DNA of 37,909 nt from Ignavibacteria bacterium (GTDB taxonomy: Bacteria > Bacteroidota > Ignavibacteria > Tepidaquicellales > OLB5). Below, piece by piece: positions 34,983-37,909 of this stretch (position 1 is its first letter; every line of letters begins with the position of its first letter). The translations under genes were made by a program, and so were the position numbers. The notes below the pieces were generated by a model. The model was not told the DNA's origin. It was given only the letters and a program-made list of their open reading frames with translations, and did not search any database. The stretch is taken from positions 1 through 37,909 of the forward strand of contig JANWKI010000097.1 of assembly GCA_025451455.1 (NCBI GenBank). Direction: 5' to 3'.

Positions 34983-35948
34983 ATGAAGGTTTATAAAGAT
35001 CTCTCGGAAATAAGTCGAAACGAAAACTCTGTTGTCACAATAGGTACATTTGACGGCTTTCATCTTGCACACAGAGAGATAATCAACCGGGTTGTGGCAA
35101 TTAAAGATCAGTCAAAACAAAAAGGTATTAATTCGCGTTCTTTCATAGTAACATTTGAGCCTCATCCGCAGGAAGTCCTTAAAAGCAAGACCCCCGATAT
35201 TAAGCTGCTGACAGCTATTGACGAAAAACTGCGGCTCTTTGAAGATGCCGGGATCGAAAATGTTCTTGTGATCAGGTTTACAGAAGAGTTTTCAAAAACA
35301 AATGCCAAAGAATTTTATGAAAAGTATGTTTACGGCGGCATTGGGATAAGCGACCTGGTTGTCGGATATGATCATTTGTTCGGGCACGACCGTGAAGGTA
35401 GTTTCCAGACACTTATTGAGCTTGGCAAGACATACAATTTTAATGTGCACAGGGTAGAAGAAATTGATATTGACGGGAAGCCTGTCAGTTCAACCCGAAT
35501 CAGGGCTGCACTGGCCGGCGGAAAGATAGAAGAAGCAAACAGGCTTCTTGGCCATGAATTTGGCTTTGACGGAATAGTGGTCGAGGGCGATAAGGTAGGC
35601 AGAACAATAGGCTACCCGACAGTAAATCTGAAGCCAGTAAAGGAAAACAAGGTAATGCCCAATGAAGGTATTTACTGTGTCAGGGTGATTCATTCAGGCA
35701 AAGAGTATTTCGGAATGATGTACCACGGCTTCAGACCTACTCTAAGCGAGGGCATAAAACGCGCGCTTGAAGTGCATATTTTTGATTTTGATAAAACAAT
35801 ATATGGCGAAAAGCTCAATATACATTTTTTAACCAGGATTAGAGACGACAAGAAGTTTGATTCAAAAGAAGAGCTGATAAAACAGATAGATAATGATAAG
35901 GAATTTTCGCTGAACTATATTAACGTGAAACGTCATCCCGCTAAGTAA
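34983..35948 (+). CDS. ribF: Bifunctional riboflavin kinase/FAD synthetase
   Basis: VVTIGTFDGFHLAHREII, FEPHPQEVL, PVSSTRIRAALAGGKIEEANRLLGHEF, GRTIGYPTVNL. Confidence 0.95.
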   Translation: MKVYKDLSEISRNENSVVTIGTFDGFHLAHREIINRVVAIKDQSKQKGINSRSFIVTFEPHPQEVLKSKTPDIKLLTAIDEKLRLFEDAGIENVLVIRFTEEFSKTNAKEFYEKYVYGGIGISDLVVGYDHLFGHDREGSFQTLIELGKTYNFNVHRVEEIDIDGKPVSSTRIRAALAGGKIEEANRLLGHEFGFDGIVVEGDKVGRTIGYPTVNLKPVKENKVMPNEGIYCVRVIHSGKEYFGMMYHGFRPTLSEGIKRALEVHIFDFDKTIYGEKLNIHFLTRIRDDKKFDSKEELIKQIDNDKEFSLNYINVKRHPAK

Positions 35949-36044
35949 AAACGCGGGACCAGCAAAAAGCGCTGGAACGTGAGACGTCAAACGTCAAACG
36001 TCAAAAGGAAAAAGTAAAAAAGCAAAAATCAAAACCAAATTTTG

Positions 36045-36056
36045 GAACCATGGTTC
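36045..36056. repeat. Perfect 12-bp palindrome GAACCATGGTTC in the rpsO upstream region
   Basis: Read directly; preceded by CCAAATTTTGG and by the short direct repeat ACGTCAA x3 near 35980-36004. Confidence 0.6.
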
Positions 36057-36122
36057 AGGGTTTAGTCAACAAAAGACTGAAATAAAATAAATACAATATA
36101 AATTCAAGGAGACAAAATAAAG

Positions 36123-36392
36123 ATGTTAACCAAAGAAGCAAAGCAGGAGATCATCACCAAATTCGGCACAAGCGCAAAGGATTCCGGCAAGGCAGAAGTG
36201 CAGATCGCAATTCTGACACAAAGAATAAACGGCCTGACCGAAACCCATTTTAACACTAAGAAAAAGGATAATCATTCCCGCCTTGGACTGCTCAAAATGG
36301 TAGGAAAAAGAAGAAGGCTCTTAAGGTATCTTGAGAACAAAGATATAGCAAGATACAGATCAATCATTAAAGAGTTAAACATAAGAAAATAA
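36123..36392 (+). CDS. rpsO: 30S ribosomal protein S15
   Basis: 89 aa; [20 protein letters not shown]-like, [29 protein letters not shown]. Confidence 0.97.
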
Positions 36393-36399
36393 ATTCAAA

Positions 36400-36632
36400 A
36401 GGGCTGTTATCTTTTCAATTTGAAAAGAAGTTTTTCTGAAGAAACAGGGCGACGAAAGTTATTTTTTAGAGGAAGAAATTCCCGAAGAATATCTTTCGCC
36501 ATCCTGTCCACTGCTCCTGCGGTTTAAATACCACCGGAGCCGCAGATCTGCCTGAAGATAATAGGCAGGTCTTCCCTCAGCGAAACTTCGAGAAATATTG
36601 AACGGATAGCCCTTAATTATTAATTAAGGAGA
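36400..36632 (+). ncRNA. Candidate structured cis-regulatory RNA in the rpsO-pnp intergenic region
   Basis: At least five nested/adjacent helices closed by AGGGC(TGT)TATC / GATAGCCCT, plus a 9-bp hairpin overlapping the pnp Shine-Dalgarno (see findings). Confidence 0.5.
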
Positions 36633-36644
36633 CAAAAAACAAAG

Positions 36645-37909
36645 ATGGTAACAGTAAAAGAAATTGAGCTTGGCGGAAAAACGCTTAAGCTCGAAACAGG
36701 TAAACTTGCAAAACAGGCCAACGGGTCAGTGCTTGCAACATACGGCGATACAGTAGTACTCTGCACGGTTGTAGCTGCAGACCAGCCCAAAGAAGGACAG
36801 GATTTTTTCCCGCTCCAGGTTGAGTACCGCGAAAAAACAGCTGCAGTCGGCAAAATTCCCGGAGGATTTTTCAAACGTGAAGCAAGGCCGAGCGAAAAAG
36901 AAATACTTTCCTCAAGGCTTATAGATAGGCCCATTCGCCCTCTTTTCCCCGAAGAATTCATGGTGGAAACACAGGTTATATGCGGTGTATATTCATCAGA
37001 CCAGGAAAATGATGCTGATGTTATTGCAGCAGTGGCAGCTTCGGCAGCGCTCATGGTATCAAATATTCCCTTTGACGGCCCGATCGGACAGGTAAGAGTC
37101 GGCAGGGTTAACGGTGAATTCATCGTAAATCCAACCCATACCCAGCTTAAGGAAAGTGATATGGATATGATAGTCGGCGGTACCGAAGATTCAATAGTAA
37201 TGGTTGAAGGCGACAGTAAAGAAGCATCTGAAGCGGATTTACTTAATGCTATAAAATTCGCTCATGAAAATATAAAGGTGTTATGCAAAGCACAGAAGGA
37301 ATTTGTAGCCGGGCTTAATATTACAAAGAGAGTCGTAAACCCTGCAGAAGTTAACAGCGAACTTGTTAACGAAGTAAAAGCACTTGCGGCAAATGCAATT
37401 AAGGAAATTCACAGGGCAGATGTTACCAAAGATGAAAGAAGCCAGAAGTATAAAGAGCTGTATGAATCGATTACTGCCGGGTTAAAGGAAAAATATCCTG
37501 ATAGCGAAAAGGCAATTGCAAAAGCTTTCGATGATATTCAATATTACGATATGCGCGAAATGATCCTGGGCGAAGGCAGAAGGCTTGACGGCAGGAAGAC
37601 AACCGATATCCGCCCGATAACCTGTGAAGTTGGTTTCCTTCCAAGGAACCACGGTTCAGCTCTGTTTACAAGAGGCGAAACGCAGAGCTTGACCTCTATG
37701 ACTCTTGGTACCAAATCAGATCAACAGATAATAGACGGTTTGCTGCCTGAGGAAAAAAAGAAATTCATGCTTCATTATAATTTCCCGCCGTTTTCAACAG
37801 GTGAAACCGGAAGATACGGCTCAACCGGAAGGCGCGAAATAGGACACGGGCATCTTGCAGAAAGATCGCTTGAAGGAATGCTTCCAAGCGCAGAGGATTT
37901 TCCATACAC
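36645..37909 (+). CDS. pnp: Polyribonucleotide nucleotidyltransferase (truncated at window edge)
   Basis: MVTVKEIELGGKTLKLETGKLAKQANGSVLATYGDTVVLCTVVAA...PGGFFKREARPSEKEILSSRLIDRPIRPLFP...FPPFSTGETGRYGSTGRREIGHGHLAERSL. Open at edge, so not in the ORF track. Confidence 0.97.
   Translation, partial: MVTVKEIELGGKTLKLETGKLAKQANGSVLATYGDTVVLCTVVAADQPKEGQDFFPLQVEYREKTAAVGKIPGGFFKREARPSEKEILSSRLIDRPIRPLFPEEFMVETQVICGVYSSDQENDADVIAAVAASAALMVSNIPFDGPIGQVRVGRVNGEFIVNPTHTQLKESDMDMIVGGTEDSIVMVEGDSKEASEADLLNAIKFAHENIKVLCKAQKEFVAGLNITKRVVNPAEVNSELVNEVKALAANAIKEIHRADVTKDERSQKYKELYESITAGLKEKYPDSEKAIAKAFDDIQYYDMREMILGEGRRLDGRKTTDIRPITCEVGFLPRNHGSALFTRGETQSLTSMTLGTKSDQQIIDGLLPEEKKKFMLHYNFPPFSTGETGRYGSTGRREIGHGHLAERSLEGMLPSAEDFPY

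Follow-up and report, generated by a model that had tools for sequence, protein, structure and literature searches.

What is the RNA that lies between the genes for ribosomal protein S15 and polynucleotide phosphorylase in an Ignavibacteria bacterium, and what might it do for the second of them? The question arises from a contig of 37,909 nucleotides (the window), on whose forward strand ribF and rpsO are followed by a spacer of 252 nt and then by the start of pnp at 36645. The original prediction placed a dense multi-helix RNA, perhaps of a new leader class, within this spacer. The rpsO-pnp context that it assigned to the RNA is borne out by Pfam matches for both genes:

36123-36392, + strand: rpsO, the open reading frame for ribosomal protein S15 upstream of the element (Pfam PF00312, E = 1.5e-32).
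36645-37907, + strand: pnp, for polynucleotide phosphorylase (Pfam PF01138, PF03725 and PF03726), which runs off the window.

The spacer is plainly structured. Its folding energy is -85.0 kcal/mol, compared with -55.8 ± 4.4 kcal/mol for 200 dinucleotide shuffles (z = -6.69), and 0/200 of these fold as low. All the helices originally read from the sequence are present at the positions given for them, including the closing helix formed by AGGGCTGTTATC (36400-36411) opposite GATAGCCCT (36605-36613), and the pairings of ACAGG (36444-36448) with CCTGT (36503-36507) and of CGAAAG (36453-36458) with CTTTCG (36493-36498). The architecture is indeed unlike that of described pnp leaders. No Rfam 15 family matches the window at the gathering score, and extension to E = 10 brings in five entries far below threshold, mostly eukaryotic, with nothing relevant among them; a search of the available papers did not find a published description of this leader. 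Neither terminators nor sigma-70-like promoters were found in 35940-36660, the promoter scan covering the sigma-70-like kind only. Upstream of rpsO there is a short tandem GACGTCAAACGTCAAACGTCAAAA at 35984-36007 that is absent from the aligned sister genomes.

How widespread is this RNA? A search with rpsO plus the spacer across 59 relatives brought the genus to 13 genomes, that of the window and 12 more. The element occurs once per genome in all 13, each time between rpsO and pnp. The spacer measures 187-243 nt in the 12 further genomes, and 10-177 nt in two other genera of the family and at 15 more distant loci. The pattern AGGGCGACGAAA-N20-50-TTTCGYYATCCT is present once in each of the 13 genomes and absent from both other genera of the family, and among 84,980 species the exact pattern occurs in 11 records, all of them Ignavibacteria/Chlorobi MAGs (the window's own genome possibly lying outside this set). 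Chlorobi bacterium OLB5 is among the records that match the window, as are several Ignavibacteria MAGs. A covariance model of the long arm of the element, termed P3, was run against 391 genomes of the class and reached E < 1e-14 in the 13 genus genomes only; 17 loci with weak matches (L071-L087) were examined, and rpsO or pnp is nearby in none of them. With filters off the same model detects a diverged homologue in a sister-genus genome (G013), on the correct strand of the rpsO-pnp spacer (locus L022; 23.4 bits, E = 1.7e-5 over 26 kb). The possibility that the segment is an interspersed repeat, raised at the outset as a ground for abandoning the prediction, is ruled out. The window's own genome contains one full match, all others being of 25 bases or fewer, the exact pattern is single-copy in 13/13 genomes, and there are no copies at unrelated loci. 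The element is genus-wide, single-copy and fixed at pnp.

Elsewhere in the order, outside this family, some rpsO-pnp spacers have features of their own. That of L031 (150 nt) is a long inverted repeat GUCAUUUUG...CAAAAUGAC resembling a mobile palindromic repeat, and those of L026 and L027 (about 112-128 nt) have a terminator-like CCCGUCC...GGACGGG hairpin between the two genes.

Alignment of the 13 genomes reveals a genus-wide core of three helices: P1, which closes the element; P2, which leads to a junction; and the long arm P3. The core and the more variable parts are placed in the window as follows:

36401-36408, + strand: 5' strand of P1, genus consensus GGGCUGUU; 97% of cells paired in 13 genomes.
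36605-36612, + strand: 3' strand of P1, genus consensus AACAGCCC.
36411-36427, + strand: hairpin CTTTTCA-ATT-TGAAAAG, in the alignment an insertion found in the window only.
36427-36438, + strand: 5' strand of P2, consensus GGUUAUUCUG, in the window GAAGUUUUUCUG; 90.6% of cells paired, with three pairs changed on both sides.
36578-36589, + strand: 3' strand of P2, consensus CAGAGUAAC, in the window CAGCGAAACUUC; it ends in CUUC, the eroded form that the window has of a conserved segment complementary to the Shine-Dalgarno sequence (anti-SD).
36445-36457, + strand: 5' strand of the lower P3 arm, CAGGGCGACGAAA, invariant in 13/13 genomes.
36494-36506, + strand: 3' strand of the lower P3 arm, UUUCGCCAUCCUG, identical in 12/13 genomes and UUUCGUUAUCCUG in L021.
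36458-36493, + strand: upper P3 arm, a covarying helix with an apical loop; the wobble pair U36464-G36487 is invariant in 13/13.
36508-36576, + strand: P4 region, one or more variable hairpins, of which the window has two, at 36513-36540 and at about 36544-36572.

P3 as a whole extends over 36445-36506 and has 21 modelled pairs, with 93.7% of cells paired in the 13 genomes. Its lower part is conserved as sequence, including two A·C oppositions that flank a G-C pair. For rpsO in the same genomes, 0/13 testable four-fold degenerate sites are invariant, and the average identity at third codon positions is 64%. The upper helix is conserved as structure, with 34 two-sided changes, compared with 13.4 ± 2.6 in shuffles; controls slid along the alignment have 4-7. 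Parsimony on a FastTree phylogeny of pnp gives about 20 standard-to-standard (compensatory) two-sided changes over seven pairs, a rough count on a tree that puts L022 beside the window and not outside the genus. The invariant U-G pair is embedded in this otherwise covarying helix, about one helical turn above the A-C mismatches of the lower arm. The L022 homologue keeps the U·G wobble and does not keep the mismatches. The near-invariance of both P3 strands exceeds the needs of plain RNase III cleavage. The apical end behaves otherwise: the predicted hairpin GGAA-GAAA-TTCC (36471-36482) is present, but it is the variable and unconserved apical loop of P3.

P1 begins about 7-10 nt past the rpsO stop codon in most genomes, and five of its eight pairs vary among the 13, on one side only. 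Jointly P1 and P2 are paired in 93.6% of cells, with six two-sided changes, compared with 1.8 ± 1.1 in shuffles. Thus both conservation and covariation are found in the 13 related genomes, the proposed structured RNA in the pnp leader is real and conserved in the genus, and its structure is well supported. Absent from the initial reading are P2, the invariance of the P3 sequence and of its U-G wobble, and the conserved anti-SD. Conversely, several helices that it contained are present in the window but are not part of the genus-wide structure. The hairpin at 36411-36427 is lacking in the other 12 genomes, and these are gapped or unrelated where the window has CTGCGG (36517-36522) opposite CCGCAG (36540-36545) and GATCTGCCT opposite AGGCAGGTC (36545-36571). 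In the minimum-energy fold of the window CTGCGG/CCGCAG is itself replaced by GCUCC (36513-36517) paired with GGAGC (36536-36540). The same fold pairs the P1 5' strand (36403-36411) not with the P1 3' strand but with the first pnp codons GGUAACAGU (~36647-36655, just past the AUG). This complementarity is partly common across the genus, and the pairing may represent an additional possible state that closes the start site.

How might such a structure reach the ribosome-binding site? Three segments near the 3' end of the spacer have to be considered:

36626-36631, + strand: Shine-Dalgarno (SD) sequence of pnp, AAGGAG, read from the sequence; GGAG is conserved in 13/13.
36586-36589, + strand: anti-SD segment, in the genus CUYC, followed by UU in most; CUUC only in the window.
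36611-36629, + strand: hairpin local to the SD, CCUUAAUUA-U-UAAUUAAGG, which is strong in the window and varies in the genus.

The original prediction had the ribosome-binding site partly covered by the last of these, read as CCTTAATTA-T-TAATTAAGG. The hairpin exists and does cover the AAGG of the SD, but it is variable across the genus: most relatives have a weaker form, L015 and L021 have none, and in L018, L019 and L020 it is replaced. In these three genomes another stable hairpin (UCCGAAG...CUUCGGA or UCCGGUU...AACCGGU) stands directly upstream of the SD in place of the AU-rich local one.

C-U-Y-C is found directly 3' of P2 in all 13 genomes, reading CUCCUU in nine, CUUCUU in two, CUCCCU in L020 and CUUCGA in the window. 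It can pair with GGAG in 13/13, with 6-11 contiguous pairs in 11 genomes and four in the window and in L020; in L020 the pairing extends the other way, as GUCUCC with GGAGAC. L015 and L021 have lost the local hairpin, and there the anti-SD remains able to close the SD. The window is the exception, having CUUC only and relying on the local hairpin. Covariation of the anti-SD with the SD is not demonstrable because the SD is itself constrained and both strands are nearly invariant (one two-sided change, with 324/500 shuffles scoring as high). Could the segment be conserved simply as part of P2? Its C, U, Y and C are invariant while the possible partner strand in P2 varies, and pairing of the anti-SD with the base of P2, tried as an explanation, occurs in 75% of cells, no better than a slide by one column. 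P2 alone therefore does not explain the anti-SD, whose role is moderately supported.

Partition-function folding of the leaders of the 13 genomes predicts that exposure of the SD depends upon the 5' half of the leader. In the full leader GGAG has a mean unpaired probability of 0.62, versus 0.13 in the 3' half alone (from the P3 3' strand onward), calculated at 37 °C for secondary structure only, with pseudoknots outside the model. In shuffled controls for the 3' half it is 0.43 when the upstream part is shuffled and 0.45 when the 8-nt anti-SD alone is shuffled. SD exposure drops on removal of the 5' half in 13/13 genomes, and the drop clearly beats shuffles in about ten. L013 and L021 do not stand out, and neither does the window, for which the 3' half gives 0.43 versus 0.41 in shuffles. 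The calculations support a model in which the anti-SD would close the SD after removal of the 5' half, which RNase III and PNPase together would bring about. An RNase III gene (TIGR02191) is found in 12/13 genomes, the one without it being a 75% complete assembly. As read from the alignment, an H-type pseudoknot over P1 would also be feasible by loop lengths; in L016, for example, there are about 2 nt from the anti-SD to P1 and about 7 nt from P1 to the SD helix.

We lean, with some reserve, towards a cis-acting leader that controls the translation of pnp, repressing it either after processing by RNase III and PNPase or as a pseudoknot. In an intact read-through transcript the spacer would form P1, P2, P3 and P4 with the pnp SD mostly exposed, and the anti-SD (CUYC-UU) would be held at the base of P2, available for pairing with the SD. 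Loss of the 5' side would let the anti-SD (in the genome of the window, the local hairpin) close the SD, and less PNPase would be made. The likeliest trigger would be cutting of the long P3 arm by RNase III, after which PNPase might digest the upstream fragment from its 3' end, generating negative feedback. In a variant of this mechanism the anti-SD would pair with the SD while the leader is intact, forming an H-type pseudoknot over P1 that is stabilized by a factor bound to P3. We infer the action on translation, its trigger and the feedback, and with it autoregulation of PNPase through this leader, from the elements described above.

Might the trigger be something other than nuclease processing? 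A protein or small ligand binding the invariant P3 could stabilize or break the anti-SD:SD pseudoknot. Near-invariant P3 strands and a wobble pair kept in 13/13 genomes within a covarying helix point to specific recognition; the wobble also persists in L022, and the pseudoknot geometry is feasible by loop lengths. Yet the lower P3 mismatches are absent from L022, no copy was found upstream of any gene other than pnp, and a distribution over one genus plus one diverged sister-genome homologue is unlike that of the widespread metabolite riboswitches. A regulator of this kind is possible but less likely than not. Rather unlikely, and offered as speculation, is a new class of leader that reads the RNA-decay machinery, where a nuclease or partner protein would recognize the invariant P3 with its U-G wobble and A-C mismatches and so decide whether the anti-SD pseudoknot forms on the pnp ribosome-binding site.

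The other explanations look to rpsO. P1 might protect the rpsO mRNA after cleavage, as a 3' stabilizer or processing site with little effect on pnp. Its position just past the stop codon of rpsO in most genomes would suit this, as would the finding that RNase III cleavage in the E. coli spacer leaves rpsO expression unaffected (PMC8708148); but the conserved anti-SD and the P1 3' end adjoining the SD would go unexplained, and no terminator-like site was found in 35940-36660, so that we think this role improbable. Alternatively S15 might bind the three-way junction together with a GU/GC motif, coupling pnp to ribosome assembly. The element adjoins rpsO and contains both G-U pairs and a three-way junction, and no conserved leader or structure is visible in the 170 nt upstream of rpsO in the genus. 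However, S15 sites have, in addition to a three-way junction, a GU/GC motif some 10 pairs from it (PMC4684408), and here no such motif is found at that distance; the steps at the conserved wobbles are UC/GG or GG/UC, and some 20 pairs separate the invariant U-G from the junction. The 16S locus shares only a few short words with the element, at chance level, and known S15 leaders precede rpsO and do not follow it. Mimicry of 16S rRNA was rejected on these grounds, and regulation by S15 is very improbable indeed. The preferred reading remains control of pnp translation in cis.

How does this leader compare with those already known for pnp? RNase III reportedly represses pnp in E. coli, Borrelia burgdorferi, Streptomyces coelicolor, Streptococcus pyogenes and Campylobacter jejuni (PMC8708148). 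Control of PNPase via its leader is on record for bacteria as distant as Proteobacteria, Actinobacteria, Borrelia, Streptococcus and Campylobacter. For E. coli, PMC3997798 cites autocontrol of PNPase via a double-stranded leader, and the RNase III-dependence of this autoregulation is cited in PMC3997798 and PMC5872136 (Robert-Le Meur and Portier; Jarrige et al. 2001; Carzaniga et al. 2009). The Ignavibacteria leader resembles that of E. coli in its position between rpsO and pnp, its long double-stranded arm, the RNase III gene of its hosts and the translation of pnp as a plausible target. It differs in its P1/P2/P3/P4 junction, its invariant P3 strands and its conserved anti-SD, and cleavage and feedback are here putative. 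In Streptomyces there is likewise an intergenic structure, a hairpin between rpsO and pnp that is cut by RNase III (PMC5872136), but S. coelicolor has a terminator and internal promoters there, whereas our scan for terminators and sigma-70-like promoters found neither here. The S15 leaders (PMC4137082, PMC4684408) are also junction or pseudoknot structures that act on translation in the neighbourhood of rpsO; they mimic the 16S site through a GGC triple and the GU/GC motif, and the present element has neither their position ahead of rpsO nor the GU/GC motif. Actino-pnp (RF01688) is, like our element, a conserved structured RNA of the pnp leader confined to one clade, in that case the Actinomycetales (Weinberg et al. 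2010, PMC2864571), but the window has no match to RF01688 at either the gathering score or E = 10.

The element is thus a real, conserved and uncatalogued pnp leader RNA of one Ignavibacteria genus, and a new family of a known kind of control. Its anti-SD and invariant P3 are concrete elements that can be mutated to find how a nuclease tunes its own synthesis. At most it would work like the E. coli, Streptomyces and Actino-pnp systems, to which we claim no kinship; a distinct and strongly conserved leader in the Ignavibacteria suggests that leader control of pnp arose repeatedly, with different RNA designs.
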